Source: Streptomyces sp. PCS3-D2 | GTDB taxonomy: Bacteria; Actinomycetota; Actinomycetes; Streptomycetales; Streptomycetaceae | DNA length: 64,000 bases | Direction: 5' to 3' | NCBI RefSeq assembly: GCF_000612545.2 | Contig: NZ_CP097800.1 | Location: 6,292,501-6,356,500, forward strand | In this document: piece by piece, positions 31,493-55,250 of the stretch | How the letters are laid out: each line of letters begins with the position of its first letter | Position numbering within the stretch: position 1 is the first letter of the stretch | Translations under genes and position numbers: made by a program | Notes under the pieces: model-generated | Told to the model about the DNA's origin: nothing | Databases searched by the model: none | What the model saw: only the letters and a program-made list of their open reading frames with translations

Positions 31493-32317
31493 GTGAGCAG
31501 AAAGATTCTGGTCATTGTCTCCGAACACGGTTACTGGGCCGAAGAACTGATAGGACCCATCTCGAAGTTCGATGAGCGGGGCTACGAGGTCATATTCGCC
31601 ACGCCGACCGGGAAGCGTGCGCACGCTCTTCCGCCGAGCCTCGACGCGAACTACGTCGACCCCCCGCTCGGACGCTCGGTGACCACCGAGGAGAACGCCC
31701 GGCTGGGGCGGGAGTTCGAGCGGTCGAGCCGACTGGACTCCCCCCTCGACATCGAGGCCTGGGTGCCCGAGCGCCCGTACACGAGTGATACGGCCTACCT
31801 GCCCAAGCTGGAGCAGTACCACCGTGACCTCGATAAACTCGACGCCGACATCGCCGGATACGACGCGATCCTCATCGTCGGGGGCAGCGGACCGATCGCC
31901 GACCTCGCCAACAACGAGCGCGTGCACGCCCTGATCCTGGCCTTCCGGAAGGCCGGCAAGGTCGTGGCCGCCGAGTGCTACGGAGTCGCCTGCCTGGCCT
32001 TCGCCCGGGACTGGGACGACCGCAAGAGCATCATCTGGGGCAAGCACGTGACCGGCCACTGCAAGGAGTACGACTACAAGGACGGCACCGGGTTCCTCGG
32101 TACCGACTTCAACATGGGGCCGCCGCCGTACCCGCTGGAGTACATCCTGCGCGACGCGACGGGACCGCGCGGCGCGTACCACGGGAACTTCGGCAAGCCG
32201 GTCTCGGTGATCGTGGACTTCCCCTTCGTCACCGGACGTTCCACCCCCGATTCCTATCTGACGGGGCAGAAGATCGTGGAGGTCCTGGAGGACGGGCTCA
32301 CCCGATACGGCTGGTAA
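31493..32317 (+). CDS. DJ-1/PfpI superfamily protein (Hsp31-like), first gene of the island
   Basis: The 274-residue protein has the class I glutamine-amidotransferase-like fold used by glyoxalase III and protein deglycases. The nucleophile elbow is AECYGVAC; the histidine that usually follows the cysteine is a tyrosine here. AEELIGP near residue 15 supplies the conserved glutamate. GTG 31493 has GGAGG five nt upstream; longer upstream frames lack one. It heads a run of co-directional genes, divergent from the zinc-finger/receiver operon with 289 nt between starts. Its substrate is unknown; a reactive 2-oxoaldehyde is plausible. Confidence 0.9.
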   Translation: MSRKILVIVSEHGYWAEELIGPISKFDERGYEVIFATPTGKRAHALPPSLDANYVDPPLGRSVTTEENARLGREFERSSRLDSPLDIEAWVPERPYTSDTAYLPKLEQYHRDLDKLDADIAGYDAILIVGGSGPIADLANNERVHALILAFRKAGKVVAAECYGVACLAFARDWDDRKSIIWGKHVTGHCKEYDYKDGTGFLGTDFNMGPPPYPLEYILRDATGPRGAYHGNFGKPVSVIVDFPFVTGRSTPDSYLTGQKIVEVLEDGLTRYGW

Positions 32318-32359
32318 TCCCGGCAACCGCAGGGAATTCGGATGGTCGAGGGGGAATTC

Positions 32360-34000
32360 ATGGAAGCCACTCCCGGACGGGAAAGGCTGATCGAGCAGTT
32401 CAAGGCCGACGGCCTGAAGGTGATGTTCGGAAATCCGGGGACGGTGGAACAGGGATTCCTCGACGCGGTGGACGCGGCGGACGACTTCCGCTACGTCCTC
32501 GCCCTCCAGGAGACCGTGGCCGCCGGCATCGCCGACGGGTACGCCCGCGCGACCGGCGGCGCGGCCCTGCTCCAGCTGCACTCCGGGGTGGGCCTCGGCA
32601 ACGGCATCGGGATGCTCTACCAGTCGCTGCGCGGCCACACCCCGCTCGTCGTCGTCGCCGGCGACGCCGGGGTGCGCTACGACGCCATGGACGCGCAGAT
32701 GGCGTCCGACCTGGTGGCGATGGCCAGGCCGGTGACCAAGTACGCGACCCGCGTCACCGATCCGCGCTCGGTGCTCCGCACCGTCCGGAGGGCCGTGAAG
32801 ATCGCGCTCACCCCGCCCCGCGGGCCCGTGTTCGTGGCGCTGCCGATGGACGTGCTGGACGAGCTCAACTCCGAGCCCGTCCTGCCGGCCACGGTCCCGC
32901 TCACGGACGTGGCGCCCTCGCCGGCGTCGGTCGGCCGGGCGGCCGAGCTGCTCGCCTCCGCCGAGCGGCCGGTCGTGCTGGTCGGGGACGGGGTGGCGCT
33001 CTCCGGGGCGCAGCGCGAGCTCGCCGCCGTCGCCGAGCTGCTGGGCGCCGACGTGTACGAGGTCGACTCCTCCGAGGTGAACATCGCGGCCTCGCACCCG
33101 CTGCGGCGCGGCCAGACCGGGCACATGTTCGGCCCGCACAGCAAGGAGCTGGTCGCGGACGCCGACGGGGTGCTGATCGTCGGCACCTATGTCTTCCCGG
33201 AGGTGTTCCCCGAGCTGGAGAGCCCCTTCCGGGCCGGCGCGAAGGTCGTCCACATCGACCTCAACGCCTATGAGATCGCCAAGAACCACCCGGTCGACCT
33301 GGGCCTCGCCGCGGACCCCCGGCAGGCGCTGCGGGCGCTGGCCGGCGTACTGGAGCGGCAGCTGACGCCCCAGCGGCGGGCCGCCGCGGCCGCCCGGCTC
33401 GATGTACGGACCCGGGAACGGTCCCGGGGGGCGGGCGCGGCCACCCAGGACGACGGCACGCCGATGGCCGTCTTCCTGCGGACCCTGGCCGAGCGCACCG
33501 GCGGGGACCTGATCGTCTTCGACGAGGCGCTGACGACCTCGCCGCTCGTCACCCGCTACCTGCCGGCGGAACGCCCCGGTGACTACCACCTCACCCGGGG
33601 CGGATCGCTGGGCGTGGGCTTCCCGGGGGCCGTCGGCGCCAAGCTGGCCCGCCCGGACCGGCTCGTCGTGGGCTTCGCCGGCGACGGCGGTTCCATGTAC
33701 ACCTACCAGGCGCTGTGGACCGCGGCCCGGCACGGCATCGACGCCAAGTTCGTCGTCTGCAACAACCGCAAGTACCGGCTGCTGGACGACAACATCGCCC
33801 AGTACTGGCGGGAGCGGGACATCCCGGAGCACGGCTTCCCGAACTCCTTCGACCTCTCGCACCCCGAGATCGACTTCGCGGGGCTGGCGCGCTCGCTGGG
33901 CGCCGGCGGGATGCGGGTGGAGAAGCCGGACGAGGCGGTCGCCGCGGTGGGCCGGATGCTGTCCCACCCCGGACCGTTCCTCGTCGACGTGCAGATCTGA
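32360..34000 (+). CDS. ThDP-dependent decarboxylase/lyase (benzoylformate decarboxylase-like)
   Basis: This 546-residue thiamine-diphosphate enzyme has the N-terminal pyrimidine-binding domain with the activating glutamate in LALQETVAAG, a central domain, and the C-terminal GDG...NN motif (GDGGS near residue 441, CNN 26 residues later) that binds Mg and diphosphate. The family cleaves or joins 2-oxoacids, releasing aldehydes. ATG 32360 follows GAGGGGG by five nt; an in-frame ATG at 32342 would add six residues. Neighbouring aldehyde dehydrogenase and oxidases could use its product. The true substrate cannot be read from sequence. Confidence 0.9.
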   Translation: MEATPGRERLIEQFKADGLKVMFGNPGTVEQGFLDAVDAADDFRYVLALQETVAAGIADGYARATGGAALLQLHSGVGLGNGIGMLYQSLRGHTPLVVVAGDAGVRYDAMDAQMASDLVAMARPVTKYATRVTDPRSVLRTVRRAVKIALTPPRGPVFVALPMDVLDELNSEPVLPATVPLTDVAPSPASVGRAAELLASAERPVVLVGDGVALSGAQRELAAVAELLGADVYEVDSSEVNIAASHPLRRGQTGHMFGPHSKELVADADGVLIVGTYVFPEVFPELESPFRAGAKVVHIDLNAYEIAKNHPVDLGLAADPRQALRALAGVLERQLTPQRRAAAAARLDVRTRERSRGAGAATQDDGTPMAVFLRTLAERTGGDLIVFDEALTTSPLVTRYLPAERPGDYHLTRGGSLGVGFPGAVGAKLARPDRLVVGFAGDGGSMYTYQALWTAARHGIDAKFVVCNNRKYRLLDDNIAQYWRERDIPEHGFPNSFDLSHPEIDFAGLARSLGAGGMRVEKPDEAVAAVGRMLSHPGPFLVDVQI

Positions 34001-34072: not shown

Positions 34073-34507
34073 ATGCCCGCCGAGCGGCAGCTGACCGAGG
34101 ACGCGATCCGCAGTTTCGCCGAGCACTGGTACGTGGCGCTGGACCAGCACGCGGCTCCGGCCGACGTGCTCGCCCTGATCACCGAGGACCTGGAGTTCAA
34201 GGTCCCCGAGGACACCTTCCTCGGACACGAGGGATTCGGCCGCTGGTACGAGGCCGTCACCCACCGCTTCTTCGACGAGGTGCACACGGTCACGAAGGTG
34301 GAACCGGTCATCGAGGGCGACCGGGCGGTGGTCCGGGTCCTCGTCAACTGGCAGGCCAAGATCTGGGACCCGCCGGCCGCCCGCAGCCAGTGGCTGGGCT
34401 TCGACGCCGACCAGACCTGGACCGTGGTCGCCGGCCCCGATGGACCGCTGATCAAGCAGTACACCGTCAACGACCTGGCTCCGATGCCCGGCTCCGGCTC
34501 CCTGTGA
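34073..34507 (+). CDS. SnoaL-like/NTF2-fold protein 1
   Basis: The 144-residue protein has an NTF2-like cone: an N-terminal helix with FAEHWYVALDQ, then LITEDLEFKVPEDTFLGHEGF and strands ending in QYTVNDLAP. Such folds act as small cyclases, isomerases or hydratases, or as binding proteins. It is the first of three consecutive NTF2-fold genes, with 22 and 4 nt gaps between them, so they may work on one substrate or form mixed oligomers. Preceded by AGGAGG. Confidence 0.85.
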   Translation: MPAERQLTEDAIRSFAEHWYVALDQHAAPADVLALITEDLEFKVPEDTFLGHEGFGRWYEAVTHRFFDEVHTVTKVEPVIEGDRAVVRVLVNWQAKIWDPPAARSQWLGFDADQTWTVVAGPDGPLIKQYTVNDLAPMPGSGSL

Positions 34508-34529: not shown

Positions 34530-34985
34530 ATGACCGAAGTGACACCCGAGCGGGTCCGGGAGGCCTACGCCGCCCTCGGCTCCGGCGACCGGGAGCGGAT
34601 CCTGCAGTACTACTCCGAGGACCTGCGCTGGCTGGTGCCGGGCAACCACCCCCTGGCCGGCTGGTACGAGAGCCTGGACGCCTTCCTGGAGCTGATGGGG
34701 CAGACCCACAAGCTCACGGGGGGCACCTTCCGGATGGACCTGGAGGCGGTGCTGGTCGGCCCGGACTGCTCGGCCGACGTGTGCCGCAACGTCGCCCTGC
34801 GGGCCGGCGCGGCCGAGGCGAGCGGGTCCCCGTACGAGCGGATGGACTACCCGGTCTTCCATTTCATGCGGTGGGCCGACGGCCGGATCGTCGAGGGCCG
34901 CGACGGGCTCTTCGGGGACTCGGCGACCGCCTTCAGCCAGTTCTGGGCGCCGTTCGCGCCGGACGGAACCCGCAGAGACCGATAG
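34530..34985 (+). CDS. SnoaL-like/NTF2-fold protein 2
   Basis: This 151-residue protein has the pattern of an NTF2-fold: AYAALGSGDRERILQYYSEDLRW in two helices, the GHxxL-like GNHPLAGWYESLDAF and a final DYPVFHFMRWADGRI strand. Ribosome site AAGGAGG. It differs enough from its two neighbours to suggest an old duplication or separate recruitment. Confidence 0.85.
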   Translation: MTEVTPERVREAYAALGSGDRERILQYYSEDLRWLVPGNHPLAGWYESLDAFLELMGQTHKLTGGTFRMDLEAVLVGPDCSADVCRNVALRAGAAEASGSPYERMDYPVFHFMRWADGRIVEGRDGLFGDSATAFSQFWAPFAPDGTRRDR

Positions 34986-34989: not shown

Positions 34990-35370
34990 ATGAGCGCGAT
35001 GGACGCACGACAGATCCTGCAGAAGTACTACGAGTACGCCAATGCCGGGGACTGGGACCGCTGGTGCGACCTGTTCGCCGACGACCAGGTCATGGACGAG
35101 CAGCTCGCCGGCCACATCGAGGGCCTGGAGGTGCTCCGCTCGATGATGAAGGGCATGGGGACGATGTACCGGGTGTTCCGCAACGAGCCCGTGCACTTCC
35201 TCGTCGACGGCGAGAAGGCCGCGGCCGTCTCCCACCTGACCGCGGTCAGCGCCTCCGGAGAGCCCATCGAGGCCGAGGTCATGAACTTCTTCCGGATCGT
35301 GGACGGAAAGATCGCCTACATGGCGAACTACCACGACACGGTTCCCTTCCAGGCCCTGAGCCAGGACTGA
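34990..35370 (+). CDS. SnoaL-like/NTF2-fold protein 3
   Basis: The 126-residue protein starts MSAMDARQILQKYYEYANAGDW, a typical SnoaL opening, followed by LFADDQVMDEQLAGHIEG and the C-terminal FFRIVDGKIAYMANYHD. Its central acidic residues could form the pocket of a small isomerase. It starts 4 nt after the previous stop; an in-frame ATG at 34999 could also serve. The GMC oxidoreductase follows 10 nt later. Confidence 0.85.
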   Translation: MSAMDARQILQKYYEYANAGDWDRWCDLFADDQVMDEQLAGHIEGLEVLRSMMKGMGTMYRVFRNEPVHFLVDGEKAAAVSHLTAVSASGEPIEAEVMNFFRIVDGKIAYMANYHDTVPFQALSQD

Positions 35371-35380: not shown

Positions 35381-36985
35381 GTGAGCGTGGAAGAGTACGA
35401 CTACGTCGTCGTGGGATCGGGCACCGCGGGCAGCGTGCTGGCCAACCGGCTCTCCGAGGACCCGGACGTCTCCGTCCTCGTCCTGGAGGCGGGCGGCTCC
35501 CGGATCCCGCCCGAGGTCGACGACCCGTCCTCCTGGTACAAGCTCCTCGGCGGGCCCGTGGACTGGGGCTACACCAGCACGCCGCAGCCCGGGCTCGACG
35601 GCCGCCGTACCTACGAGCCGCGCGGCAAGGCCCCCGGCGGCAGCAGCAACCTCTACATCATGATGCACATCCGCGGCCACGCCTCGGACTTCGACAACTG
35701 GGCCTACCAGGGTGCGGCCGGCTGGGCCCACGAGGACGTGCTGCCGTACTTCGCCCTGCTGGAGGGCCAGGAGGACGCCACCGCCGCGACCACCGGGACC
35801 CGCGGCCCGCAGCGGATCACCAACGCCGGGCTGCACGGCCCCAACCCGGTCTCCCGCGCCTTCATCGACGCGGCCGTCGAGCTCGGCCACGAGGAGATCG
35901 CCGACTTCAACACCGACGGGCCCCGGCGCGGGCTCTTCGGCACCGGCTGGCACCACATCGACGTGGCCGACGGGCGCCGCCAGGGCACCCTGGCGGCCTA
36001 TCTGGAGCCCGCCCTCGACCGGCCGAACCTGACCCTGCGCACCAACGCGCAGAGCACCCGGCTCCTCGTCGACGGCGACACCTGCACGGGCGTCGAGTAC
36101 GTGCAGCTCCAGGCGCCCGCGGAGTTCCCCGGTCGGACCGTCCGGGACGGCCACAGCAGTCCCGCCGCGCCCGGGCCGCACACCGTACGGGCCCGGCGCG
36201 AGGTGGTCGTGGCCGCCGGGGCGATCGAGTCGCCGAAGCTGCTGCTGCTCTCCGGCATCGGCCACCCCGAGCAGCTGCGCGAGCACGGCATCGAGGTCAC
36301 CGCGGCCCTGCCCGGGGTCGGCGAGAACTTCCACAACCACGTCCTGACCGGTCTGATGGCCGAGGTCACCCAGGAACTCCCGCCGCCGGCGCAGAACCTG
36401 TCGGAGAGCGCTCTGTTCCTGTCCTCGCAGCCGGGACTGCCCGCCCCCGACCTGCAGATCGCCTTCGTCCACGTGCCGTTCGACGTGATCGTCGGCAGGG
36501 ACCACCCGAACACGGTGAGCATCCTGCCCGGGGTGGTGCGCCCGGTCTCGCGCGGCTGGATCAGGCTGGCGAGCGCCGACCCACTGGCCCACCCGCTGAT
36601 CAACCCGAACTACCTGGGCGACCGGTGGGACCTGGAGCGCATGGTGCAGGGCGTCAAGATCGCCCGGGAGATCTTCGCGACCTCGGCCTTCTCGCCCTGG
36701 TACAAGCAGGAGCTGCAGCCCGGCCCCGGCCACGTCAGCGACGACGACCTGCGGACCTTCGTGAAGCAGAAGTCGGAGAGCTACCACCACCAGTCCGGCT
36801 CCTGCCGCATGGGCATCGACGACCTCGCCGTCGTCGATCCGCAGCTGCGGGTGCACGGCGTGCGCAACCTGCGCGTCGTGGACGCCAGCGTGATGCCCGC
36901 CGTCCCGTCGGGCAACTGCCACGCCGCCATCGCGATGATCGCCGAGCGCGCGGCGGACTTCCTGAGGGGGACCTCCCGTGCCTGA
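35381..36985 (+). CDS. GMC-family FAD-dependent alcohol oxidoreductase
   Basis: The 534-residue flavoenzyme has the Rossmann motif VVVGSGTAGSVLANRL, the GMC signature RGKAPGGSSNLY and GAIESPKLLLLSGIG. Active-site residues are the histidine in YHHQSGSCRMG and the asparagine/histidine in PSGNCHA. Family members oxidise primary alcohols to aldehydes (choline, aryl alcohols, glucose). In this operon it could supply or remove the aldehyde handled by the decarboxylase and dehydrogenases. GTG 35381 follows GGGAGG; it overlaps the next gene by 8 nt. Confidence 0.93.
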   Translation: MSVEEYDYVVVGSGTAGSVLANRLSEDPDVSVLVLEAGGSRIPPEVDDPSSWYKLLGGPVDWGYTSTPQPGLDGRRTYEPRGKAPGGSSNLYIMMHIRGHASDFDNWAYQGAAGWAHEDVLPYFALLEGQEDATAATTGTRGPQRITNAGLHGPNPVSRAFIDAAVELGHEEIADFNTDGPRRGLFGTGWHHIDVADGRRQGTLAAYLEPALDRPNLTLRTNAQSTRLLVDGDTCTGVEYVQLQAPAEFPGRTVRDGHSSPAAPGPHTVRARREVVVAAGAIESPKLLLLSGIGHPEQLREHGIEVTAALPGVGENFHNHVLTGLMAEVTQELPPPAQNLSESALFLSSQPGLPAPDLQIAFVHVPFDVIVGRDHPNTVSILPGVVRPVSRGWIRLASADPLAHPLINPNYLGDRWDLERMVQGVKIAREIFATSAFSPWYKQELQPGPGHVSDDDLRTFVKQKSESYHHQSGSCRMGIDDLAVVDPQLRVHGVRNLRVVDASVMPAVPSGNCHAAIAMIAERAADFLRGTSRA

Positions 36986-37616
36986 TGCCGTCCTGCGCGA
37001 GGGTGCCCTGTCCGGGACCCGGATCGCGGTCCTGGTCGAGAGCGACTACTACGAGCCCGAGATCTTCTACTACCAGCACCGGTTCGCCGAGGAGGGCGCC
37101 GAGGTCGACTTCCTGACCCGGCTGTGGGGCAACGACTCCATCACCTTCATCGGGCACGAGTACCGGGCCCCGTTCACCGTCGACCGGTCCCTGGAGGGAC
37201 TGAGCGACGAGGAGCTGCGCCGGTACGCGGCGGTCATCGTGCCCTCGGGCATGGTGGCCGACCGGCTGCGCTACACCGAGGACGTCGACGTCCTCGCCCC
37301 GGCGACCGAGCTGCTGCGCCGGGCGTTCGAGGAGCCGACGATCCTCAAGGGGATCATCTGCCACGGCATGTGGCTGGCTTCCTCCATCCCCGGGAAGATC
37401 CGCGGCCGCAAGGTGGTCTGCCACAACAACCTGATCGGCGACGTCCGCAACATGGGCGGGGAGTACGTCGATGAGGACGTCGTGGTCGACGGCGACCTGG
37501 TCACCGGCCGCACCGGGGCCCACCACCACCTGTTCGCCCGCCGGCTCATCGAGCTGATCGCGGCCGGCCGGGGCCGGGGGGCCGTCCCCCGGCCACCGCT
37601 GGGGGGTGCCTCCTGA
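36978..37616 (+). CDS. DJ-1/PfpI superfamily protein 2
   Basis: A 212-residue protein with the DJ-1 nucleophile in GIICHGMWLAS, where Cys is followed by His as in active members, and the conserved glutamate in YYEPEIFYY. It may be a glyoxalase/deglycase, protease-like hydrolase or isonitrile hydratase-like enzyme. The GTG start overlaps the GMC gene by 8 nt and its stop overlaps the VOC gene by 1 nt, so the three are translationally coupled. Confidence 0.9.
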   Translation: MPDAVLREGALSGTRIAVLVESDYYEPEIFYYQHRFAEEGAEVDFLTRLWGNDSITFIGHEYRAPFTVDRSLEGLSDEELRRYAAVIVPSGMVADRLRYTEDVDVLAPATELLRRAFEEPTILKGIICHGMWLASSIPGKIRGRKVVCHNNLIGDVRNMGGEYVDEDVVVDGDLVTGRTGAHHHLFARRLIELIAAGRGRGAVPRPPLGGAS

Positions 37617-38086
37617 TGCCGGGGGCCGCGGACCGGCCGATGGTGTGGTCGCACGTGGGCCTGAACTGCGTGGACCAGAAGACCACCGAGGACTTCTACA
37701 CCCGGTACTTCGGCTTCTCCCGGGCCCGGGTGGTCGACCTCGGGGAGTCGCAGATCGTGTTCCTGCGCAAGGGCGACGCGTACCTGGAGCTCTTCGCAGC
37801 GGATGCCGGGCCGGACCGCACGGCCCCGGGGGTCCCCCCGGCCGCAGCCGGCGGAGACGGGCCGCAGGCCCCGGGCCGGATGCGCCACCTGGCGTTCCAG
37901 ACCGACAGCGTGGACGCGTTCCTGGCCGATCTGGGCGACGCGGCGGAAGTGACCCTGGGCCCGCTGGACTTCGACGACTTCATCTGCGGCTGGCGGACCG
38001 TGTGGGTCCGCGACCCCGACGGGGTGATCGTCGAAGTGAGCCAGGGATACGAGGACGACAGCACTCACGACAAGGACGGTGCATGA
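37616..38086 (+). CDS. VOC-superfamily protein (glyoxalase I-like)
   Basis: The 156-residue protein has the paired beta-alpha-beta-beta-beta units of VOC enzymes: WSHVGLNCVDQKTTEDFY with the first metal His, a middle EL strand (YLELFAADAG), HLAFQTDSVDAFL and a last VWVRDPDGVIVEVSQ with Glu. The metal set H/E/H/E appears complete, compatible with glyoxalase, dioxygenase or epimerase activity. A Gly/Pro linker around residue 70-82 joins the halves. Confidence 0.88.
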   Translation: MPGAADRPMVWSHVGLNCVDQKTTEDFYTRYFGFSRARVVDLGESQIVFLRKGDAYLELFAADAGPDRTAPGVPPAAAGGDGPQAPGRMRHLAFQTDSVDAFLADLGDAAEVTLGPLDFDDFICGWRTVWVRDPDGVIVEVSQGYEDDSTHDKDGA

Positions 38087-38087
38087 C

Positions 38088-39911
38088 ATGGCGGACGCCG
38101 TGAGCTTCTCCTTCTCCGACACCATCGCGGGCTACGTCGTCCGCTTCGACTCCGGTACGCGCGTGCTGCGGCTGAAGACCTCGGACGGCCGCGAGTGCGA
38201 CGTCTCGCTGGCCGGCGGCCCCAGCGCCGAGCTGGTCCGCAACCTGGACGAGCCCTACATCGACGCCTCCGGGCACATCGACGAGATGCTCTCGCCGGGC
38301 CGGTTCCTCTTCGTCTACGGCGTCCACTACCCCGAGCACGGCGGCCGCTTCGACGCCAAGCGCCTGGTGTTCCTGGGCCGCAGCGCCGAGGACTACCGGT
38401 TCGAGGAGGGCAGCTGGTGGATCAAGCAGATCGAGTCGCTGGCCGACTTCTACCGGCGGGCGCAGTTCGGCGACGGACCGGTGGACTTCACCGACTACCG
38501 CACCGAGATCCGGCTCGGCGGTGACAAGACCGCCAGCCACGTCCAGGAGACCGACACGATCTCCCGGCTGGTGTACGGCATGGCCTCGGCCTACCTGCTG
38601 ACCGGCAAGGACGAGTACCTGGAGGTCGCCGAGCGCGGCACCGAGTACCTGCGCAAGCACATGCGGGTCGTGGACAGCGAGGAGGACGTGGTCTTCTGGT
38701 ACCACGGCATCAGCGTCGACGGGGACAGCGAGCGCAAGCTGTTCACCTCGGAGTTCTCCGACGACTACGACGCGATCCCGATGTACGAGCAGATCTACGC
38801 GTTGGCCGGCCCCATCCAGACCTACCGGGTCACCGGCGACGTCCGGATCAAGAACGACGCGGACGCCACGATCCGGCTGTTCGACAAGTTCTTCTTCGAC
38901 CCGGAGCAGGGCGGCTACTACTCCCACATCGACCCGATCCTCTTCAGCGCGGACCACGAGTCCCTGGGCGAGAACGCCGAGCGCAAGAACTGGAACTCGG
39001 TCGGAGACCACGCCCCGGCCTACCTGATCAACCTGTACCTGGCGACGGGCGAGCAGAAGTACGCCGACTTCCTCGAGTACACCTTCGACACGATCGCGGA
39101 CAAGTTCCCGGACTACAAGAACAGCCCCTTCGTCCAGGAGCGCTTCTTCCGCGACTGGTCCCACGACAAGGCGCACAGCTGGCAGCAGGACCGCGCGGTC
39201 GTCGGCCACAACCTGAAGATCGCCTGGAACCTGATGCGGATGAACTCGCTGAAGGCCAAGCCGGCCTACGAGGAGCTCGCCAGGAAGATCGGCGAGATCA
39301 TGCCGGCCGTCGGCAGCGACGTGCAGCGCGGCGGCTGGTACGACGTCGTGGAGCGGGTGAAGGAGGGTGACCAGGAGACGTATCGTTTCGCCTGGCACGA
39401 CCGCAAGGCCTGGTGGCAGCAGGAGCAGGCGATCCTCGCCTACCTCATCCTGAACGGCACGGTCGGTGGCGAGGCGAACCTGCGCGAGGCCCGGCAGGCC
39501 CAGGCCTTCTACAACACCTTCTTCCTCGACCACGACGAGGGCGCCGTCTATTTCAACGTGCTCGCCAGCGGCACGCCGTACCTGCTCGGCACCGAGCGGC
39601 TCAAGGGCAGCCACTCGATGTCCATGTACCACTCGGCGGAGCTCTGCTACCTCGCCGCCGTCTACAACAACCTGCTCGTCAACGGCCGGGAGATGGACTT
39701 CCACTTCCAGCCCGACCCGACCGGCCTGCCCGGCCGCGTCCTGCGCGTCTCGCCCGACCTGCTGCCCGCCGGCTCGGTGCGGATCGCGTCCGTGGAGATC
39801 GACGAGAAGCCCTACACCGACTTCGACGCGGAGGCGCTCACCGTGCGCCTCCCCGACGTCCAGAGCCGGGTCAAGGTCAAGGTCCGGCTGCGGCCGACGG
39901 CCGCGAAGTAG
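38088..39911 (+). CDS. Enlarged AGE (N-acylglucosamine 2-epimerase)-family protein
   Basis: The 607-residue protein has an (alpha/alpha)6-barrel core of the AGE/cellobiose-epimerase type between about residues 110 and 530 (DTISRLVYGMASAYLLTG, WWQQEQAILAYL, WHDRKAWW). Usual AGE proteins have about 400 residues. Here a beta-rich head of ~100 residues (SDTIAGYVVRFDSGTRVLRL) and a beta-rich tail of ~70 (GSVRIASVEIDEKPY) are added. A sugar-2-epimerase or related aldose activity is possible but not certain. ATG 38088 is used; GTG 38079 is an alternative that overlaps the VOC stop. The STAS gene follows 37 nt later. Confidence 0.85.
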   Translation: MADAVSFSFSDTIAGYVVRFDSGTRVLRLKTSDGRECDVSLAGGPSAELVRNLDEPYIDASGHIDEMLSPGRFLFVYGVHYPEHGGRFDAKRLVFLGRSAEDYRFEEGSWWIKQIESLADFYRRAQFGDGPVDFTDYRTEIRLGGDKTASHVQETDTISRLVYGMASAYLLTGKDEYLEVAERGTEYLRKHMRVVDSEEDVVFWYHGISVDGDSERKLFTSEFSDDYDAIPMYEQIYALAGPIQTYRVTGDVRIKNDADATIRLFDKFFFDPEQGGYYSHIDPILFSADHESLGENAERKNWNSVGDHAPAYLINLYLATGEQKYADFLEYTFDTIADKFPDYKNSPFVQERFFRDWSHDKAHSWQQDRAVVGHNLKIAWNLMRMNSLKAKPAYEELARKIGEIMPAVGSDVQRGGWYDVVERVKEGDQETYRFAWHDRKAWWQQEQAILAYLILNGTVGGEANLREARQAQAFYNTFFLDHDEGAVYFNVLASGTPYLLGTERLKGSHSMSMYHSAELCYLAAVYNNLLVNGREMDFHFQPDPTGLPGRVLRVSPDLLPAGSVRIASVEIDEKPYTDFDAEALTVRLPDVQSRVKVKVRLRPTAAK

Positions 39912-45254: not shown

Positions 45255-45291
45255 GTTGAATCGGCAGCGAATCCAGAACAAGGAGAGAATC

Positions 45292-47645: not shown

Positions 47646-48260
47646 ATGCGGACAGGCATCATCGGCACCGGGCGGATCGGCACGGTCCTCGCGAGGATCC
47701 TCGTGGCGGCGGGCCACCACGTGGTCCTCGCCAACGCCCGTGGCCCGCAGACCCTCGGCCCGCTCGTGGCCGAGCTGGGACCGGCGGCCTCGGCGGCGCA
47801 CCCCGCCGAGGCCGCCGCCCAGGCCGAACTCCTGGTGCTGATGGTGCCCTTCGAGCGGGTCCGGGGATTGCTCCCGCCGCACGTCGTGCAGGACAAGGTG
47901 CTGGTGGACGCGACGAACGCGTTCGGCGGCCCCGGCGCGCCCGCCGACCTCGGTGGGCGCGGCTCCAGCGACCTGGTCGCCGAGTGGTACCCGGCGGCCC
48001 AGGTCGTGAAATCGCTGAACACCATGCATTTCGAAACCCTCGCCGTCGCGGGAACCGCACCCGGAGAGCGCCTGGCGCATTTCACCGCCGGCGACGACAA
48101 GAAGGCGAAGGAAATCGTCGCGGGAATCATCACGGATCTCGGATTCGCGCCCGTCGACACCGGTCCGCTGCACTCCGGGGGAATTCTCCAGCAGCCCGGC
48201 GGGCCCCTCTTCAACCGGCCGCTCACGGAAGCGCAGGCGCTGGCATGGACATCACACTGA
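47646..48260 (+). CDS. F420/NADP-type reductase-like NAD(P)-binding protein
   Basis: The 204-residue protein is a Rossmann domain of the NADPH-dependent F420-reductase/ProC-like type: [16 protein letters not shown] at the start, ANARGPQTL for the NADP phosphate, and [13 protein letters not shown]. It could reduce F420, or act as a small NADP-linked dehydrogenase. Its last 16 nt overlap the iron-sulfur subunit gene, tying it to the molybdenum hydroxylase operon. Confidence 0.85.
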
Positions 48261-48769
48261 ACGTGAACGGAAGACCCGAGCAGTTCTCGGCGCAGCCGAA
48301 CGAACTGCTCGTGGAAAGGCTCCGCGACGGCCTCGGCCTGACCGGCACCAAGGTCGGCTGCGACACCGGCCAGTGCGGCTCCTGCGTGGTCCGCCTCGAC
48401 GGCCGGTCCGTCAAGAGCTGCCTGGTCCTCACCGCCTCCGCCGCCGGCGGCGAGGTCGCCACCATCGAAGGCGTCACCGCCCGGGGCGGGGAACTGTCCG
48501 GACTGCAGGAGGCCCTGCGCCAGGAGCACGGCACCCAGTGCGGCTTCTGCACCCCCGGAATGGTCATGGCGCTCGGCGAGCTCGTGGACGCCACCGCCGA
48601 CGGCCCGGCCCCCACCGAGCCCGAGATCCGCGAGTGGCTCACCGGCAACCTGTGCCGCTGCACCGGCTACCACAGCGTCGTACGAGGGGTGCAGCGCGCC
48701 TGCGCCGCCTCCCGCGACGAGGTGCCCGCCGGCTCCGCCGCATCCACCGCAGCCGTACCGGAGGTGTGA
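48245..48769 (+). CDS. Molybdenum hydroxylase, [2Fe-2S] subunit (xanthine/aldehyde dehydrogenase family)
   Basis: The 174-residue subunit carries two [2Fe-2S] clusters. The plant-ferredoxin-type cluster uses CDTGQCGSC plus a later Cys (KSCLVL). The second uses CGFCTPGM and CRCTGY. It shuttles electrons from the Mo site to FAD. ATG 48245 gives the family start [11 protein letters not shown] and overlaps the reductase gene by 16 nt. A Ser/Ala-rich tail after ~150 is unusual but short. Confidence 0.95.
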
Positions 48770-48774: not shown

Positions 48775-51180
48775 ATGACCACAGTGACGGGGGACGCCCC
48801 GGCCGGCCGGGGTGGAGTGCTCGGGCAGCCGCTGGACAGCCGCGAGGATCCGCAGCTACTGCGCGGCGAAGCCACGTACGTCGCGGACATCGACCTGCCG
48901 GGCACCGCGCACATGGCCATCCTGGGCAGTCCGGTGGCGCACGCGAAGATCCTCTCCATCGAGACCAAGGCGGCCGAGCAGCTGCCCGGCGTGCTGAAGG
49001 TGGCCACCGCGGCCGACTTCACCGACGTCATGCCGCTGCCCTGCATCTGGATCCCCGGCGGGGTCGAGAGCCACTTCCCGCCGCACCCCTACGGACTCCC
49101 CGGCGCCCGCCCGGTCCTGACCGGCGACACCGTCCGCCACGTGGGAGATCCCGTCGCCGTGGTCGTCGCCGAGACTCCGCGGCAGGCCGCCGCGGCGCTG
49201 GCCGCCATCCACGTCGAGTACGAGCCGCTGCCCGTCGTCACCCGTGCCGACGAGGCCCTGGCCGACGGCGCGCCCCAGCTCCACGAGGCCGTCCCGGGCA
49301 ACCTCAACGCCTACTGGACCTGCGGCGACAAGGACCGCACCGACGCGGCCATCGCCGCCGCCGAGGTCACCGTCGAACTCGACCTGGTCAACCAGCGCAC
49401 CATCAACAGTCCGATCGAGCCGCGCGGCGCGGTCGGCGACTACGACCCGGCCACCGGCGAGTACACCCTCTACGCCTCCACCCAGGGCCCGCACAACCAC
49501 CGCTTCCTGCTCGCCGCCCTGGTCCTCGGCATCCCCTTCAACAAACTCCGGGTGATCGCCCCGACCGTCGGCGGCAGCTTCGGCACCAAGGGGTACCTCT
49601 ACCCCGACATGCCCCTGGTGCTGCTGCTCTCCAAGGCGCTCGGCCGCCCCGTGAAATGGGTGGACACCCGCACCGGCCTGATGAGCTCCACCGTCCAGGG
49701 CCGCGACCACCGCCAGCACGTCACCCTCGCCGGCACCCGCGACGGCCGCATCACCGCCGTGCGCTGCACCAGCTACGCCAACCTCGGCGCGTACCCCTCG
49801 ACGATCGGCCCCGGCGTCGCCACCGCCCTGATGGGCCGTTCCATCAGCGGGATGTACGACATCGGCGCCGCCTTCTGCGAGGTGTACGCCGCCTTCACCA
49901 ACACCGTCTCCCTCGGCGCCCAGCGCGGCAGCGGACGCGCCGAGGCCGCCTTCCTCATGGAGCGGCTCGTCGACCGGTACGCCGACGAGATCGGCATGGA
50001 CCCGGCGGCGGTGCGGCGCAAGAACCTGGTGCCGGAGGAGAAGTTCCCGTACGACAACGGCCTCGGCTGGACCTACGACTCCGGGAACTACCGGCTCAAC
50101 TTCGACAAGGCCATCGAGCTGTCCGGATACGGCGACATGCCCGCCCGCAGGGCCGAGGCCCGTACCCGCGGCAAGCGCCTCGGCGTCGGCATCGCCACCT
50201 ACGTCGCGATCTGCGGCGTCGGCCCCTCCACGCGAATGTCGCAGGAGGGCATGCTCGGCGGCACCTGGGAGAGCGCCAACATCCGCATCCACCCCACCGG
50301 CGAGGTCACCGTCACCGTCGGTTCGGCCTCCACCGGCCAGAGCCACGGGACGATTTTCGCCCAGGTCGCCGCCGACGAGCTCGGCATCGACCCCGCGACC
50401 GTCCAGGTCCACGAGGGCGACACGCAGAAGGCCCCGTACGGCCAGGGCACCTACGGCTCCCGCTCCTACAGCATGGCCGCGCCCGCGGTGGTCCTCACCG
50501 CCCGCAAGCTCAAGGCCAAACTGGTCCGGGCCGGCGCCGTCTTCCTGGGCGTGCCCGAGGACAAGGTCGTATACGAGGGCGGCGCGATCCACGAGGAGGG
50601 CAACCCGGAGAACACCAAGACCTTCGCCGAACTCGCGATGGCCATGTGGTACGGCTGGGGCCTGCCCCCGGAGATCGAGCCGGCCCTGGACGAGACCACC
50701 CACTTCGACCCGCCGGACTTCAACTACCCCTTCGGCACGCACGTCGCCGTCGTCGAGATCGACGAACTGACCGGTGAGACCGAGGTGGTCGCCTACACCG
50801 CCGTCGACGACGCCGGCAACATCGGCAACCCGAAGATCGTCCAGGGGCAGATCGAGGGCAGCATCGTCCACGGTCTCGGCCAGGCCCTCATGGAAGCCGC
50901 CGAATACGACGAGAACGGCCGGCTGATCAGCTCGGACCTCGGCCACTACGCCCTCCCGCGCGCGGCCGACGCGCCGTTCTTCGCGCTCGACAAGACCGTC
51001 ACGCCCAGCCCGCACAACCCGCTCGGTGCCAAGGGCGCGGGGGAGATCGCCACCGTCCCGCCGGCGGCCGCCGTCGTCAACGCCGTCGTCGACGCCCTCC
51101 GCGACCTGGGCGTCCGCCACATCGACATGCCACTCACCCCCGAGAAGGTCTGGCGCCACCTGAGAGGGGAATCCCAGTGA
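48775..51180 (+). CDS. Molybdenum hydroxylase, large molybdopterin-cytosine-dinucleotide subunit
   Basis: The 801-residue subunit has the standard domain order: an N-terminal Ald_Xan_dh domain (LDSREDPQLLRGEATYVADI) and Mo-cofactor domains with VGGSFGTKGYLYPD and TGQSHGTIFAQVAADELG. The catalytic glutamate sits in GAKGAGEIATVPP. The active-site loop reads GAQRGSGRAEA rather than the AYxCSFR of true CO dehydrogenase. An aldehyde or N-heterocycle hydroxylase is therefore more likely than CO oxidation. ATG 48775 lies 5 nt after the iron-sulfur gene; its stop overlaps the FAD subunit by 4 nt. Confidence 0.94.
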   Translation: MTTVTGDAPAGRGGVLGQPLDSREDPQLLRGEATYVADIDLPGTAHMAILGSPVAHAKILSIETKAAEQLPGVLKVATAADFTDVMPLPCIWIPGGVESHFPPHPYGLPGARPVLTGDTVRHVGDPVAVVVAETPRQAAAALAAIHVEYEPLPVVTRADEALADGAPQLHEAVPGNLNAYWTCGDKDRTDAAIAAAEVTVELDLVNQRTINSPIEPRGAVGDYDPATGEYTLYASTQGPHNHRFLLAALVLGIPFNKLRVIAPTVGGSFGTKGYLYPDMPLVLLLSKALGRPVKWVDTRTGLMSSTVQGRDHRQHVTLAGTRDGRITAVRCTSYANLGAYPSTIGPGVATALMGRSISGMYDIGAAFCEVYAAFTNTVSLGAQRGSGRAEAAFLMERLVDRYADEIGMDPAAVRRKNLVPEEKFPYDNGLGWTYDSGNYRLNFDKAIELSGYGDMPARRAEARTRGKRLGVGIATYVAICGVGPSTRMSQEGMLGGTWESANIRIHPTGEVTVTVGSASTGQSHGTIFAQVAADELGIDPATVQVHEGDTQKAPYGQGTYGSRSYSMAAPAVVLTARKLKAKLVRAGAVFLGVPEDKVVYEGGAIHEEGNPENTKTFAELAMAMWYGWGLPPEIEPALDETTHFDPPDFNYPFGTHVAVVEIDELTGETEVVAYTAVDDAGNIGNPKIVQGQIEGSIVHGLGQALMEAAEYDENGRLISSDLGHYALPRAADAPFFALDKTVTPSPHNPLGAKGAGEIATVPPAAAVVNAVVDALRDLGVRHIDMPLTPEKVWRHLRGESQ

Positions 51181-52007
51181 TCCTCACCGAGTTCGACTAC
51201 GCCCGCCCCAACGGCCTCGACGAGGCACTGGCCCTGCTGTCCGACGCCCGGGGCGCCCGGGTCCTGGCCGGCGGCCAGAGCCTGCTGCCCGACCTGCGCG
51301 CCGGAGCCGACAGCGCCCGCCTGCTCGTCGACATCCGGCAGCTGGCCGAGCTGCGCGGCACCGCCCGCACCTCCGACGGACGGCAGCTGCGCATCGGGGC
51401 CCTCACCACGCTCGCCGACCTCGCCGCCGATGCGCTGGTCCTCGCCGAAGCACCGGAACTGGCCGCCGCGGCCCGTTCCAACGGCGACCCCCAGGTCCGC
51501 AACCTCGGCACCGTCGGCGGCAACCTCGTCGCCGCCGGGCGGTCCACCGACCTGCCGGTCGCCGCCATCGCCGCCGACGCCGTCGTCGAACTGGCCGGCC
51601 CCGGCGGGCGCACCACCGTCCCGGCCGAGGAATTCGCCGCCGGTACCGCGCCCGCCGGCCAGATCCTCACCGCACTGCTGGTGCCCGCAGCCGGCCCGGC
51701 CGCCGCCTTCGAGAAGTCCGCCGACCGGGCCACCCGCTACCCGGTCTGCGCCACGGCCGCACGGATCACCCCCGACGGGCCCCGCATCGCCGTCACCGCG
51801 GCCACCCCCCGGCCCCAGCGCCTGCGCGGGGTCGAAGACCGGCTGCGCGGGGGCCCGTACAGCACCGAAGCCGTCCTCGCCGCCTTCCGCGCCGAACCCC
51901 GGGAGCTGTTCGTCCCCGGGCGCGGCACCTCGGCCGAATACCTCGGCCACCTCGCGGGGGTCCTCACCGCCCGCGCGCTGCAGAGGGCCGAGCGGGCCCG
52001 CACCTGA
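51177..52007 (+). CDS. Molybdenum hydroxylase, FAD subunit
   Basis: The 276-residue subunit has the two FAD motifs of the CoxM type: AGGQSLLPDLRAG near residue 32 and TVGGNLVAAGRSTD near 115. It passes electrons from the iron-sulfur clusters to the final acceptor. The GTG start overlaps the large-subunit stop. Together with the two preceding genes it completes an alpha-beta-gamma enzyme; the chaperone XdhC is found 5 kb downstream. Confidence 0.93.
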   Translation: MILTEFDYARPNGLDEALALLSDARGARVLAGGQSLLPDLRAGADSARLLVDIRQLAELRGTARTSDGRQLRIGALTTLADLAADALVLAEAPELAAAARSNGDPQVRNLGTVGGNLVAAGRSTDLPVAAIAADAVVELAGPGGRTTVPAEEFAAGTAPAGQILTALLVPAAGPAAAFEKSADRATRYPVCATAARITPDGPRIAVTAATPRPQRLRGVEDRLRGGPYSTEAVLAAFRAEPRELFVPGRGTSAEYLGHLAGVLTARALQRAERART

Positions 52008-52059: not shown

Positions 52060-53316
52060 GTGGCCGATCCGTCCGAAACGACCACGGGGGCAACCGTGCA
52101 CCCAGCCGCCCACGCGGCCGGCACGCCCAGAGGCTCCGGCTTCTGGGTGGTGGGTGCCGTCCTCGTCCTGCTGATGCTCTCCTCCTCCGTACCCTCCGCC
52201 CTCTACGTGCTCTACCAGCAGAAGTGGGACCTGTCCTCCGGCACGATCACGGTCGTCTTCGCCCTGTACGCCGTCACCGTGCTGACCGGGCTGCTGCTCT
52301 TCGGGTCCCTCTCCGACACCCTGGGCCGGCGCCCCGTCCTCGCCGCCGGGCTGGTCCTGGCGATCGTCTCGATGGCCTGCTTCGCCGGGGCACAAGGGCT
52401 CGGGCTGCTCCTGGTGGCCCGCGCCGTGCAGGGGCTCGCCGTGGGACTGGCCACCGGCGCGATGGGCGCGGCCCTGCTGGAACTCAGCCCGGTTGCGCGG
52501 CCCGCCCTCGGCGCCCAGGTCAACAGTGCCGGCCCGACCGTGGGCATCGGGCTCGGCGGGATCGGTGCCGGACTGCTCGTCCAGTACGCGCCCGCACCGA
52601 CCGTCCTGAGCTACCTGCTGCTCATCGGGGCCTTCGCCGTGACCCTGGTGGGGGTCGTCCGCATGCGAGAGAGCGCTCCCGGCGCCGGCGGCCGACTGCG
52701 GGTGGTCCCGCACCGGATCCACGTACCGGCCGGCGCTCGGGGCCGCTTCCTGGTCCTCGTGCTGACCATCGTCGCCGTCTGGTCCGTGGGCGGCTTCTAC
52801 CTCTCCCTCGGCCCGCACCTGGCCCTGTCCCTGCTCCGGTCCACGAACTACCTCGTCGGCGGGGCCACCGTCGCACTGCTCGCCGGCGCCGCCACCGCCG
52901 CCCAGCTCCTGCTCGGCCGCACCGCGGCGCTGCGCACCGCCGTGCTCGGGCTGCTCGGCCTGCTCACCGGTCTCGCGCTCGTGCTGCTTGCACTGGGCCT
53001 GGGCTCGGCTCCCCTGTTCCTGGCGGCCACGGCCGTCCTCGGCAGCGGCTGGGGAGCCGCCTTCCTCGGCGCCTTCCGGGCGCTGAGCGGGCTGGCCGAT
53101 CCGGCCCACCGCGGCGAACTGACCGCCGCCGTATACGTCTTCGCGTACCTCGCGATGAGCGTGCCGGCCGTGCTCGCCGGGATGCTCACCAACATCCACG
53201 GGCTGCACCGCACCTCGGTCGGTTTCATGGCCGCCGTCGCCGCGGTGTGCGCGGTGGCCCTGCTGGCCACCCTGCGCCTGGCCGCCCGCACCAAGGCCGA
53301 GGGGAGCACGGCATGA
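52060..53316 (+). CDS. MFS transporter
   Basis: About 418 residues with roughly twelve hydrophobic segments. The A-motif variant GSLSDTLGRRPVL after helix 2 and the central AVQGLAVGLATGAMG identify a major facilitator. It probably exports or imports the island's metabolite. The start is uncertain: GTG 52060 follows GGGGGAG by 12 nt, while GTG 52096 has GGGGG five nt upstream and would remove 12 residues. The stop overlaps the kinase gene by 4 nt. Confidence 0.88.
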   Translation: MADPSETTTGATVHPAAHAAGTPRGSGFWVVGAVLVLLMLSSSVPSALYVLYQQKWDLSSGTITVVFALYAVTVLTGLLLFGSLSDTLGRRPVLAAGLVLAIVSMACFAGAQGLGLLLVARAVQGLAVGLATGAMGAALLELSPVARPALGAQVNSAGPTVGIGLGGIGAGLLVQYAPAPTVLSYLLLIGAFAVTLVGVVRMRESAPGAGGRLRVVPHRIHVPAGARGRFLVLVLTIVAVWSVGGFYLSLGPHLALSLLRSTNYLVGGATVALLAGAATAAQLLLGRTAALRTAVLGLLGLLTGLALVLLALGLGSAPLFLAATAVLGSGWGAAFLGAFRALSGLADPAHRGELTAAVYVFAYLAMSVPAVLAGMLTNIHGLHRTSVGFMAAVAAVCAVALLATLRLAARTKAEGSTA

Positions 53317-54896
53317 GCACACCGGACCCGACCGCACCGCACATGAGCACACCGCACATGACCGCATCGCGCATGACCGCACCGGAGCTGCGCTCCGCCC
53401 TGCGCGGACTCGAAATCTTCGCGGGGATCACCGAGGACCAGCTGGACTGGCTGGTGTCGGTGTCCCGGCCGCAGCTCCTCGCCGACGGGGAGGTGCTCTT
53501 CCGGGACGGCGAGGAGGCCACCGGCTTCCACGTGCTGCTCTCGGGCGGGCTCGTCGTCACCAAGGTCGTCGACGGCCGGGAGGAGGTGCTCACCCGGCAT
53601 TCCACCGAGGAGGAGAGCGCCGCGGCCGAGGACCACGACGGCAAACCCCCGGCAGCCCACCGGTTCACCGGCGAGCTGCCGCTGCTGACGGACGGCGCGT
53701 ATGTGGCGACCGCCGCCGCGAGCGGGCCGGCGACCACGGTGGTGGCGTACCCCAAGGCGGTCTTCTTCGAGATGCTTACGCGCTGCCACGGGGTGGCCGC
53801 CGTACTGATCCCCGTGCTGGCCTGGCGCATCAAGTCCTCCGAGGTGCAGGCCCGCAAACGGGCCACCGTGGAGGCGCTCGGCACCCTCGCCGCCGGGCTC
53901 GCGCACGAGCTGAACAACCCGGCGGCCGCCGTGGCCCGGGCCGCGCAGGAACTGGCCCCGGCCCTGGACCGGCTCACCCGGACCGCGCAGGACTGGGGTG
54001 CGGCCGCCACCGCCGCCGAACGTTCGGTCCTCGACCGGCTCACCGCGGAACTGGACGGACTGCCGCCACCGGTCACCACCGATCCGCTGGCCCAGGCCGA
54101 CGCCGAGGAGGAGATCGCCGACTGGGCCGACGAGGCCGGAGCCGAACGCCCCGGCCTGCTGGGATCGGGCGTCTCCGATCTGGGACGGGAACTGGGCTGG
54201 CTCCTGGAGCGGATCGAGGGGGTCGGCAAGGAGGCGCTGCCCCGCGCCCTCGACCACCTGGCGGCGCTGCTGGAGATCCGGTCGCTCGCAGCCGAGCTGC
54301 GGGCCGCAGGCCCCAGGATCTCCCAACTTGTTTCCGCCACCCGGGATTACGCCAATCTCGACCGGGCGCCCGAACAGCGCTTCTCGGTGACCGAGGGGCT
54401 GGAGAACACGCTGGTGGTGCTGCGTGCCAAGCTCGACGGCATCAGCATCGTGCGTGCGTACGATCCAGATCTTCCCGAACTGACGGGCTATCCCAGTGAG
54501 TTGAACCAGGTGTGGACCAACCTGGTCGACAACGCCGTCGAGGCCATGGAAGGTGCCGGCGTGCTGACGCTGAGCGCCCGGTCCGAGGGCGTCTGCATGG
54601 TCGTGGAGGTTGCCGACACCGGGCGGGGCATTCCCGAGGAGTCCCTGCCGCGGATCTTCGAGCCCTTCTACACGACCAAGGATGTGGGCAAGGGCACGGG
54701 CCTGGGGCTGCACCTCAGCTATCGCATCGTGACTCAGCGCCACCGCGGGTCGCTCACCGCCCGCTCGCGTCCCGGCGAGACCCGGATGGTCGTGCGGCTG
54801 CCCTTCGCGGGCAGCGCACAATCCTGCGTCTCACCTGCACAGAAACCCGATACCGCAGTGGAAACCGCACCTACCGAAGGCACCTCTCCCCAGTGA
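53313..54896 (+). CDS. Cyclic-nucleotide-domain sensor histidine kinase
   Basis: The 527-residue kinase has a repetitive N-terminal tail (about 1-24), a cNMP-binding-like domain (about 30-160: IFAGITEDQLDWLV, GFHVLLSGGLVV), a dimerisation helix with His198 in GLAHELNNPAA, and a C-terminal ATPase with NLVDNAVEAMEG, DTGRGIP and GKGTGLGL. No membrane helix is seen, so it is cytosolic. No response regulator is adjacent; the only kinase-less receiver nearby is the fusion at 29207-30934. ATG 53313 overlaps the MFS stop and has GAGGGGAG upstream. In-frame ATGs at 53343, 53358 and 53373 are alternatives. Confidence 0.9.
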   Translation: MSTPDPTAPHMSTPHMTASRMTAPELRSALRGLEIFAGITEDQLDWLVSVSRPQLLADGEVLFRDGEEATGFHVLLSGGLVVTKVVDGREEVLTRHSTEEESAAAEDHDGKPPAAHRFTGELPLLTDGAYVATAAASGPATTVVAYPKAVFFEMLTRCHGVAAVLIPVLAWRIKSSEVQARKRATVEALGTLAAGLAHELNNPAAAVARAAQELAPALDRLTRTAQDWGAAATAAERSVLDRLTAELDGLPPPVTTDPLAQADAEEEIADWADEAGAERPGLLGSGVSDLGRELGWLLERIEGVGKEALPRALDHLAALLEIRSLAAELRAAGPRISQLVSATRDYANLDRAPEQRFSVTEGLENTLVVLRAKLDGISIVRAYDPDLPELTGYPSELNQVWTNLVDNAVEAMEGAGVLTLSARSEGVCMVVEVADTGRGIPEESLPRIFEPFYTTKDVGKGTGLGLHLSYRIVTQRHRGSLTARSRPGETRMVVRLPFAGSAQSCVSPAQKPDTAVETAPTEGTSPQ

Positions 54897-54908
54897 AACG
54901 GAGTCGAC

Positions 54909-55250
54909 ATGGCCACGTACGACATCTCCACACTGCACCCGGTGTTCGTCCGCCAGATGGAGGCGCTGGCCGCCTTGGACATCGAGGCGGTGATGAAGAA
55001 CTACACCGACGACGCCGTGCTGTTGCGGTTCGAGGGCGTCTCGGTGGGCATCGAAGCGGTGCGTGAGACCTTCACCGGCTACCTCAGCGTGAAGCCGACG
55101 CTGGTGGAACTTCAGGAGTACGTCGAGACCGAGGACACCATCTTCTATCGGGCGATCATGAACCTGAACGGCGAACCGGAGCACGCATTCGGGACACTCG
55201 TGGTCCGCGATGGCCGAATCTGGCGCCAGACCGCCGGATTCGGCAGCTGA
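54909..55250 (+). CDS. SnoaL-like/NTF2-fold protein 4
   Basis: The 113-residue protein has the NTF2-like opening FVRQMEALAALDIEAVMKNYTDDA and a core with VSVGIEAVRETFTGYLS. It starts 12 nt after the kinase with GGAG upstream, so it is likely on the island transcript. It is separated by 20 kb from the other three NTF2-fold genes. Confidence 0.85.
   Translation: MATYDISTLHPVFVRQMEALAALDIEAVMKNYTDDAVLLRFEGVSVGIEAVRETFTGYLSVKPTLVELQEYVETEDTIFYRAIMNLNGEPEHAFGTLVVRDGRIWRQTAGFGS

Follow-up and report, generated by a model that had tools for sequence, protein, structure and literature searches.

Which process is served by a long one-way run of genes that brings together carbonyl-metabolism enzymes, a glycogen debranching enzyme and a complete partner switch? 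We addressed this question for Streptomyces sp. PCS3-D2, in a window of 64,000 nucleotides at 6.29-6.36 Mb of the 7.6-Mb genome. An earlier note on this DNA had described about 22 co-directional genes over about 22 kb, ending at position 55250, as one linked system with its own signaling. The common direction was borne out, with the actual figures being 24 genes, all on the forward strand, over 23.8 kb (31493-55250). The run does not end there; it reaches position 58546 through a TMEM175-like channel gene, a DDE_5 transposase-like gene and, last, an XdhC/CoxI-type gene, giving 27 genes with neighbor distances of -19 to +82 nt throughout. Two reverse-strand genes, for a zinc-finger protein and a fused response regulator/thioredoxin reductase-like protein (RR-TrxR), precede the run. 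They lie outside the coordinates of the note, and RR-TrxR probably pairs with the histidine kinase of the run. Every gene class named in the note was confirmed by Pfam, while the [2Fe-2S] subunit of the molybdenum (Mo) hydroxylase had been overlooked. The note had not recognized the gene set as a described system, but its core is that of the icfG operon of Synechocystis, of which the island is an enlarged version. We consider it likely that the island as a whole is an enlarged carbon-switch cluster of the icfG type. The core is thus already known; new here is the fusion of its AGE-superfamily protein (AGE) to a STAS domain in two clades.

The icfG operon of Synechocystis PCC 6803 comprises slr1852-slr1862 (Beuf 1994, Shi 1999 and Gonzalez 2001, cited in PMC12329169), and its link with cyanobacterial carbon control dates back to 1994. 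In published accounts Slr1855 is described as AGE, Slr1856 and Slr1859 as STAS proteins, Slr1857 as GlgX and Slr1860 as IcfG. Slr1861, which is a kinase and also an anti-SigC (PMC12329169), is reported to phosphorylate both Slr1856 and Slr1859, and IcfG to dephosphorylate Slr1856. Mutants are said to show poor growth at low carbon in the presence of glucose. The 2025 paper gives the targets of both STAS proteins, sigma factors or others, as unknown (PMC12329169). In Synechocystis 6803, slr1853 is annotated as CMD.

We made the comparison with the genome of Synechocystis salina (L122), strain 6803 being known by its published order. The S. salina locus consists of an unknown gene, CMD, DJ-1, AGE, STAS, GlgX, STAS, a phosphatase, an RsbW-type ATPase and Lar_N, which is the published order of slr1852-1862. 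Its AGE was missed by Pfam, yet is 62% identical to that of the window. The island shows the same order from AGE to the second STAS gene, with AGE and GlgX 62-63% identical to those of S. salina, and it also encodes a SpoIIE-type PP2C and a SpoIIAB/RsbW-type kinase. The sequence motifs of the kinase and the STAS proteins are intact, and GlgX scored 696 bits with TIGR02100 (cut-off 640.9). DJ-1b precedes AGE, with the VOC gene alone between them. Unlike the operon, the island has the kinase and phosphatase genes in reversed order and adds genes for a MinD-like ATPase, a thiamine diphosphate (ThDP) enzyme, GMC, VOC and SnoaL-like proteins, the Mo-hydroxylase, and RR-TrxR with the histidine kinase. 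The core, namely DJ-1, AGE, STAS, GlgX, STAS, PP2C and the RsbW-type kinase, occurs together in some members of the Actinobacteria, Cyanobacteria, Chloroflexi and Deinococcota. No description of an actinobacterial form of the icfG-type cluster was found in the open-licence literature.

A scan of species genomes yielded at least 570 AGE relatives, of which the best 80 loci (L056-L135) were compared together with flanks of up to 10 kb, counting matches that covered at least 40% of the window protein. AGE is at least 62% identical over these 80 loci, which come from four phyla; the counts lean towards close relatives, and two of the 80 are from one genome. GlgX was present in 77, STAS2 in 75, STAS1 in 74 and DJ-1b in 69, followed by RsbW (66), PP2C (65), DJ-1a (56), ThDP (55), MinD (54), GMC (41), VOC (38) and SnoaL-1 (37). 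ALDH, the aldehyde dehydrogenase, was found in 25 and the Mo-hydroxylase large subunit in 23, nearly all of the window's clade, although the 10-kb flanks undercount both. In the three loci lacking GlgX (L098, L116 and L131) the contig ends 0.2-1.4 kb past AGE. Among actinobacteria other than the window's clade, GlgX is present in 35 of 36 loci, the kinase and PP2C in 33 each and ThDP in 29; the 16 cyanobacterial loci carry GlgX in 15, STAS2 in 14, STAS1 in 11, DJ-1b in 9 and ThDP in none; and of the three Chloroflexi or Deinococcota loci, two each carry GlgX, the kinase and PP2C. One Trueperaceae contig (L108) encodes DJ-1a, ThDP, SnoaL, DJ-1b, VOC, AGE, STAS, GlgX, STAS, kinase, PP2C and MinD. 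Hence AGE, GlgX and STAS form the constant part of these clusters, to which ThDP, GMC, VOC, SnoaL and the MinD-like ATPase are often added in actinobacteria; the Mo-hydroxylase, ALDH and the redox two-component pair are additions of the window's lineage. The tie to glycogen suspected in the earlier note is supported, GlgX being the steadiest partner of AGE. AGE itself is uncommon: of 121 genomes sampled from the genus 20 have it, as do 9 of 117 cyanobacterial genomes (an even draw, center genome included), and 3 of 296 phylum-wide genomes gave a match, two of these at 27-28% identity (the genus and phylum counts include the genome under study). In all nine cyanobacteria GlgX is beside AGE; in eight STAS lies between the two (one with a broken AGE), and in one GlgX is on the other side of AGE.

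Within Streptomyces, which supplies the nearest AGE relatives (97% identity in S. virginiae), nine of the 19 other AGE-bearing genomes preserve the complete block, RR-TrxR via DDE_5 and XdhC to guaB, in unchanged order, and all nine of these fully conserved islands retain both RR-TrxR and the zinc-finger gene. The remaining ten have diverged versions, with rpe and guaB absent from the fetched stretch (two of the 19 stretches stop short, after 17 and 3.5 kb, with partial content, and one was fetched at 14 kb). Most of them carry DJ-1a, ThDP, DJ-1b, AGE and GlgX, the switch genes being present in some and absent in others, and in four (G003, G011, G068 and G077) a distance of 10-17 kb separates GlgX-AGE from a DJ-1b-ThDP-DJ-1a block in inverted orientation. 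GlgE-type genes are near seven of the ten diverged clusters and GlgB-type genes near three, which is a further tie to alpha-glucan metabolism; L028 and L048 (G033 and G003) are examples of diverged clusters with such genes. By contrast with the core, the five housekeeping genes of the flanks (rpe, the sugar-binding gene, two small open reading frames and guaB) were near AGE in none of the 55 loci outside the window's clade. Since nine of 19 congeners keep the block, the core recurs in other phyla and the flanking genes do not follow AGE, the linkage exceeds chance. The idea of a linked system with its own signaling was put to the refutation test set in the note, linkage beyond this strain, and was not refuted by it.

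The AGE protein itself gives a hint of what the switch may act on. It has an (alpha/alpha)6-type barrel at about residues 103-538, with 15-19% identity to its best matches in the AGE superfamily (D-mannose isomerase, cellobiose 2-epimerase, glucose 2-epimerase and YihS), from which it differs by extra N- and C-terminal parts. Two candidate catalytic residues, His377 (aligned with the GHN of glucose 2-epimerase) and His518, do not vary among 29 sequences. The AGE reading frame continues into a STAS domain in L115, L123 and L132 according to Pfam, in L133 according to a hidden Markov model (HMM), and in L134 as judged from reading frame and sequence. At the equivalent place, four Streptomyces proteins of the GlgX-AGE type (G003, G017, G068 and G077) showed a weaker STAS match (E 6e-9 to 1.6e-6) with an HMM built from the loci; the AGE of G011 was left out. 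In a FastTree phylogeny of AGE the fused proteins form two groups, each with support 1.000. That of the cyanobacteria sits inside a set of unfused cyanobacterial proteins (0.969), and that of Streptomyces falls outside the clade of non-actinobacterial proteins (0.991). Two separate fusion events are the simplest account, gain and later loss being a less simple alternative. As AGE is fused to STAS in two clades, the switch may bind and control AGE itself, perhaps besides a sigma factor.

The Nostocales locus with the fusion (L123 and four others) resembles the island in having GlgX, AGE, RR-TrxR and the histidine kinase with a cyclic nucleotide monophosphate (cNMP) binding domain, and in L123 also SnoaL and VOC. 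It differs in that STAS is fused, no switch kinase or PP2C lies within 10 kb, and MIP, SDR and MGH1/GH63 genes stand in place of the redox set. The order in L123 (932-15572) is SnoaL, VOC, MIP channel, SDR, MGH1/GH63 hydrolase, GlgX, AGE::STAS, RR-TrxR and cNMP kinase, a gene set that points to solutes like glucosylglycerate or mannosylglycerate. To our knowledge this locus has no name.

We propose the following mechanism. A carbon or redox signal would act on PP2C and on the pair of cNMP kinase and RR-TrxR. The switch kinase would phosphorylate the STAS proteins and PP2C would reverse this according to carbon or redox state. With this change in phosphorylation, free STAS would bind AGE, and STAS would also bind the kinase, to which a sigma factor encoded at another locus may be held. 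In this way the switch would set glycogen debranching by GlgX and isomerization of the freed reducing sugars by AGE, and DJ-1, ThDP, GMC, VOC, ALDH and the Mo-hydroxylase would convert or clear the resulting oxo-sugars and aldehydes. Binding of STAS to AGE is the new claim of this model and the oxo-sugar and aldehyde step is its weakest, a putative carbonyl role of the island being plausible. That STAS is a phosphorylation-controlled regulatory subunit of AGE, perhaps also of GlgX, in a partner switch with an enzyme output in four phyla, is offered tentatively, as a proposal that may well prove wrong. If STAS is such a subunit, the elusive targets of Slr1856 and Slr1859 would be explained, and glycogen debranching and the fate of reducing sugars would be tied directly to the kinase/phosphatase balance in four phyla. 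The fusions offer a direct target for the switch, and the uncharacterized Slr1855-type protein gains a genomic context. AGE and GlgX, in most cases accompanied by a DJ-1 protein, can now be named as the steadiest enzymes of the module, and its presence in non-photosynthetic actinobacteria shows that its role is not tied to photosynthesis as such.

Several observations weigh against reading the island as an icfG-type cluster with AGE as an output. The PP2C input is receiver-like, as in RssB, instead of HAMP/Cache (the S. salina phosphatase is HAMP-SpoIIE with a weak Cache match), and neither CMD nor Lar_N, two genes not known to be indispensable to the cluster type, was among the Pfam results of the run; for these reasons we regard the island as a variant and not as the same icfG operon. 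The DJ-1 protein adjacent to AGE is mostly just 27-35% identical in cyanobacteria. RsbW and PP2C are near AGE in just six of the 16 cyanobacterial loci, the other ten comprising four at contig ends, five of the AGE::STAS type with RR-TrxR and kinase, and one (L120) of neither sort. The STAS part of the Streptomyces fusions is diverged and has lost the Ser, and it gave no Pfam match at E 0.01 in the one protein examined. The run also yielded no gene for a sigma factor. Finally, the whole reading is drawn from gene content, linkage, motifs, folds and fusions.

The strongest alternative is an orthodox partner switch, in which the sole task of STAS, RsbW and PP2C is to govern a SigB-type sigma factor whose gene lies elsewhere, the enzymes being no more than members of its regulon. 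It agrees with the double function of Slr1861 described above (PMC12329169) and with the intact kinase and STAS motifs of the island. On the other hand, it leaves the AGE::STAS fusions of two clades unexplained, five cyanobacterial loci have STAS on AGE with no kinase or phosphatase near, and the run itself offers no sigma gene. We regard it as a serious possibility, short of a probable one.

A second alternative, the view of the earlier note, is a pathway devoted to making or removing a reactive carbonyl, with private signaling. It draws on the three DJ-1 genes and the VOC, ALDH, GMC, ThDP and Mo-hydroxylase genes found in a single run. Orthologues of the Mo-hydroxylase large subunit (66-84% identity) occur in four of 25 other genomes, the remaining matches being at most 46% identical, and all four are near AGE and adjoin DJ-1c or lie within 6 kb of it. 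Most such enzymes are optional in the wider set, however, whereas GlgX and AGE are constant, and we judge this alternative unlikely. The nearest solved family of the ThDP enzyme is benzoylformate decarboxylase, although its score of 309 bits falls below the cut-off of 493. A GMC enzyme of the mycofactocin type was considered and rejected, the scores being under the cut-offs. The Mo-hydroxylase shares three subunits and an XdhC/CoxI maturation gene with the aerobic CO dehydrogenase/xanthine dehydrogenase family, and its large subunit has its closest PDB match in CoxL. The active-site Cys of CoxL lies in a CSFR motif; in the island GSGR is aligned to this stretch, and CO dehydrogenase was ruled out. 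A sulfoquinovose-type pathway, suggested by the resemblance of AGE to YihS and a weak one of the reductase to sulfolactaldehyde reductase, was unsupported, as Pfam showed neither a sulfoquinovosidase nor a sugar kinase or an aldolase in the run.

A third account takes the icfG-type core, the Mo-hydroxylase operon and the two-component pair as independent modules merely side by side on a transferred island. Parts have indeed been gained and lost separately among the loci, and the block of about 30 kb has probably been transferred between families, since AGE of the window joins that of Sphaerisporangium melleum in the FastTree phylogeny (support 1.000). Nearly the whole island is found in that species (L104), which belongs to another family. 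In Streptomyces the island occupies an otherwise nearly empty site: the run is flanked by rpe with a sugar-binding gene on one side and guaB on the other, and the sugar-binding gene is 32.7 kb from guaB in the window and 0.4-4.9 kb from it in all six congeners chosen from the 101 without AGE. No island proteins were found at these six sites except an unrelated-looking ALDH (36%) beyond guaB. The G+C profile of the window has no clear break, and ARAGORN found no transfer RNA gene in it. What speaks against mere neighborhood is that the same modules meet in varied orders and orientations across genera and phyla, RR-TrxR, kinase and AGE in Nostocales among them, and we hold this account to be rather improbable. 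A natural-product gene cluster is very improbable, for although SnoaL-like, GMC, VOC and MFS genes are common in such clusters, no polyketide synthase, nonribosomal peptide synthetase, terpene synthase or other core synthase was among the Pfam results of the run, and the same set accompanies GlgX in other phyla.

RR-TrxR was found near AGE (at least 54% identity, coverage at least 85%) in eight of the 55 outside loci, those of Sphaerisporangium melleum, S. album, Kibdelosporangium and five Nostocales; in a ninth (Planobispora, L084) it is truncated where the locus ends. In the five Nostocales the cNMP histidine kinase is at the RR-TrxR locus too, directly after RR-TrxR in L123. As both accompany AGE there, the island histidine kinase and RR-TrxR are a likely two-component pair. 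Matches of 24-29% in eight other Streptomycetaceae loci are probably unrelated reductases and were excluded from the linkage. No CxxC occurs anywhere in the 575 residues of RR-TrxR, which rules out a thioredoxin reductase, and the reductase part therefore probably acts on something besides thioredoxin. The stop codon of the zinc-finger gene and the start codon of RR-TrxR overlap (ATGA).

Table 1. Features of the island and its surroundings, with window coordinates.
Feature	Position	Strand	Basis
RR-TrxR, fused response regulator/TrxR-like FAD (flavin adenine dinucleotide) protein	29207..30934	-	Pfam Response_reg + Pyr_redox_2; 575 residues
UBP-type zinc-finger protein	30931..31203	-	Sequence and frame
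Conserved upstream region, probable promoter/operator of the run	31300..31492	+	10-genome alignment; putative function
DJ-1/PfpI protein a (ThiJ_like)	31493..32317	+	Pfam
ThDP enzyme, benzoylformate decarboxylases nearest	32342..34000	+	Pfam
SnoaL-like 1	34073..34507	+	Pfam
SnoaL-like 2	34530..34985	+	Pfam
SnoaL-like 3	34990..35370	+	Pfam
GMC oxidoreductase (alcohol/choline oxidase-like)	35381..36985	+	Pfam
DJ-1/PfpI protein b (DJ-1 by AGE)	36978..37616	+	Pfam
VOC (glyoxalase-fold) protein	37616..38086	+	Pfam
AGE-superfamily protein, 610 residues, Slr1855 type	38079..39911	+	Pfam
STAS protein 1 (Slr1856 position)	39949..40293	+	Pfam; Ser motif
GlgX glycogen debranching enzyme	40290..42437	+	Pfam; TIGR02100 above cut-off
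STAS protein 2 (Slr1859 position)	42454..42765	+	Pfam; Ser motif
RsbW/SpoIIAB-type kinase (Slr1861 counterpart)	42762..43235	+	Pfam
SpoIIE-type PP2C, RssB-like receiver-fold N-terminus (IcfG counterpart)	43217..44476	+	Pfam
MinD/ParA-like ATPase	44479..45222	+	Pfam
DJ-1/PfpI protein c, Mo-hydroxylase-linked elsewhere	45253..46032	+	Pfam
Aldehyde dehydrogenase (ALDH)	46115..47599	+	Pfam
F420/NADP-type reductase	47646..48260	+	Pfam
[2Fe-2S] subunit of Mo-hydroxylase	48245..48769	+	Pfam
CoxL-like Mo-hydroxylase large subunit	48775..51180	+	Pfam
FAD subunit of Mo-hydroxylase	51177..52007	+	Pfam
MFS transporter (start uncertain)	52060..53316	+	Pfam
Histidine kinase with cNMP-binding domain	53313..54896	+	Pfam
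SnoaL-like 4	54909..55250	+	Pfam
TMEM175-like channel	55272..55997	+	Pfam
DDE_5 transposase-like gene without first catalytic Asp	56070..57362	+	Pfam
XdhC/CoxI-type maturation factor	57362..58546	+	Pfam

The start of the first gene is backed by an alignment of 10 genomes, in which upstream indels interrupt the longer frame. The region before it, judged from the alignment read by eye, is conserved in the 10 genomes and contains a palindrome, TTCGGCCGAA, which is not in all of them, and two similar stretches, CTACTTCATGAC and CTACCTCACGAA; these three are possible candidate operator sites.

The DDE_5 gene (IS701-like) lacks the first catalytic Asp, in the DDTG stretch, in the window and in all 25 linked relatives, which rules out a live insertion sequence. 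Another DDE_5 protein of the same genome has FDDTG, and the whole 7.6-Mb genome has 12 DDE_5 places. DDE_5 relatives are near AGE in 25 of the 36 other actinobacterial loci (within L082-L128), and the gene overlaps XdhC by TGATG in all 10 close genomes. It appears as a kept, translationally coupled resident of these clusters.

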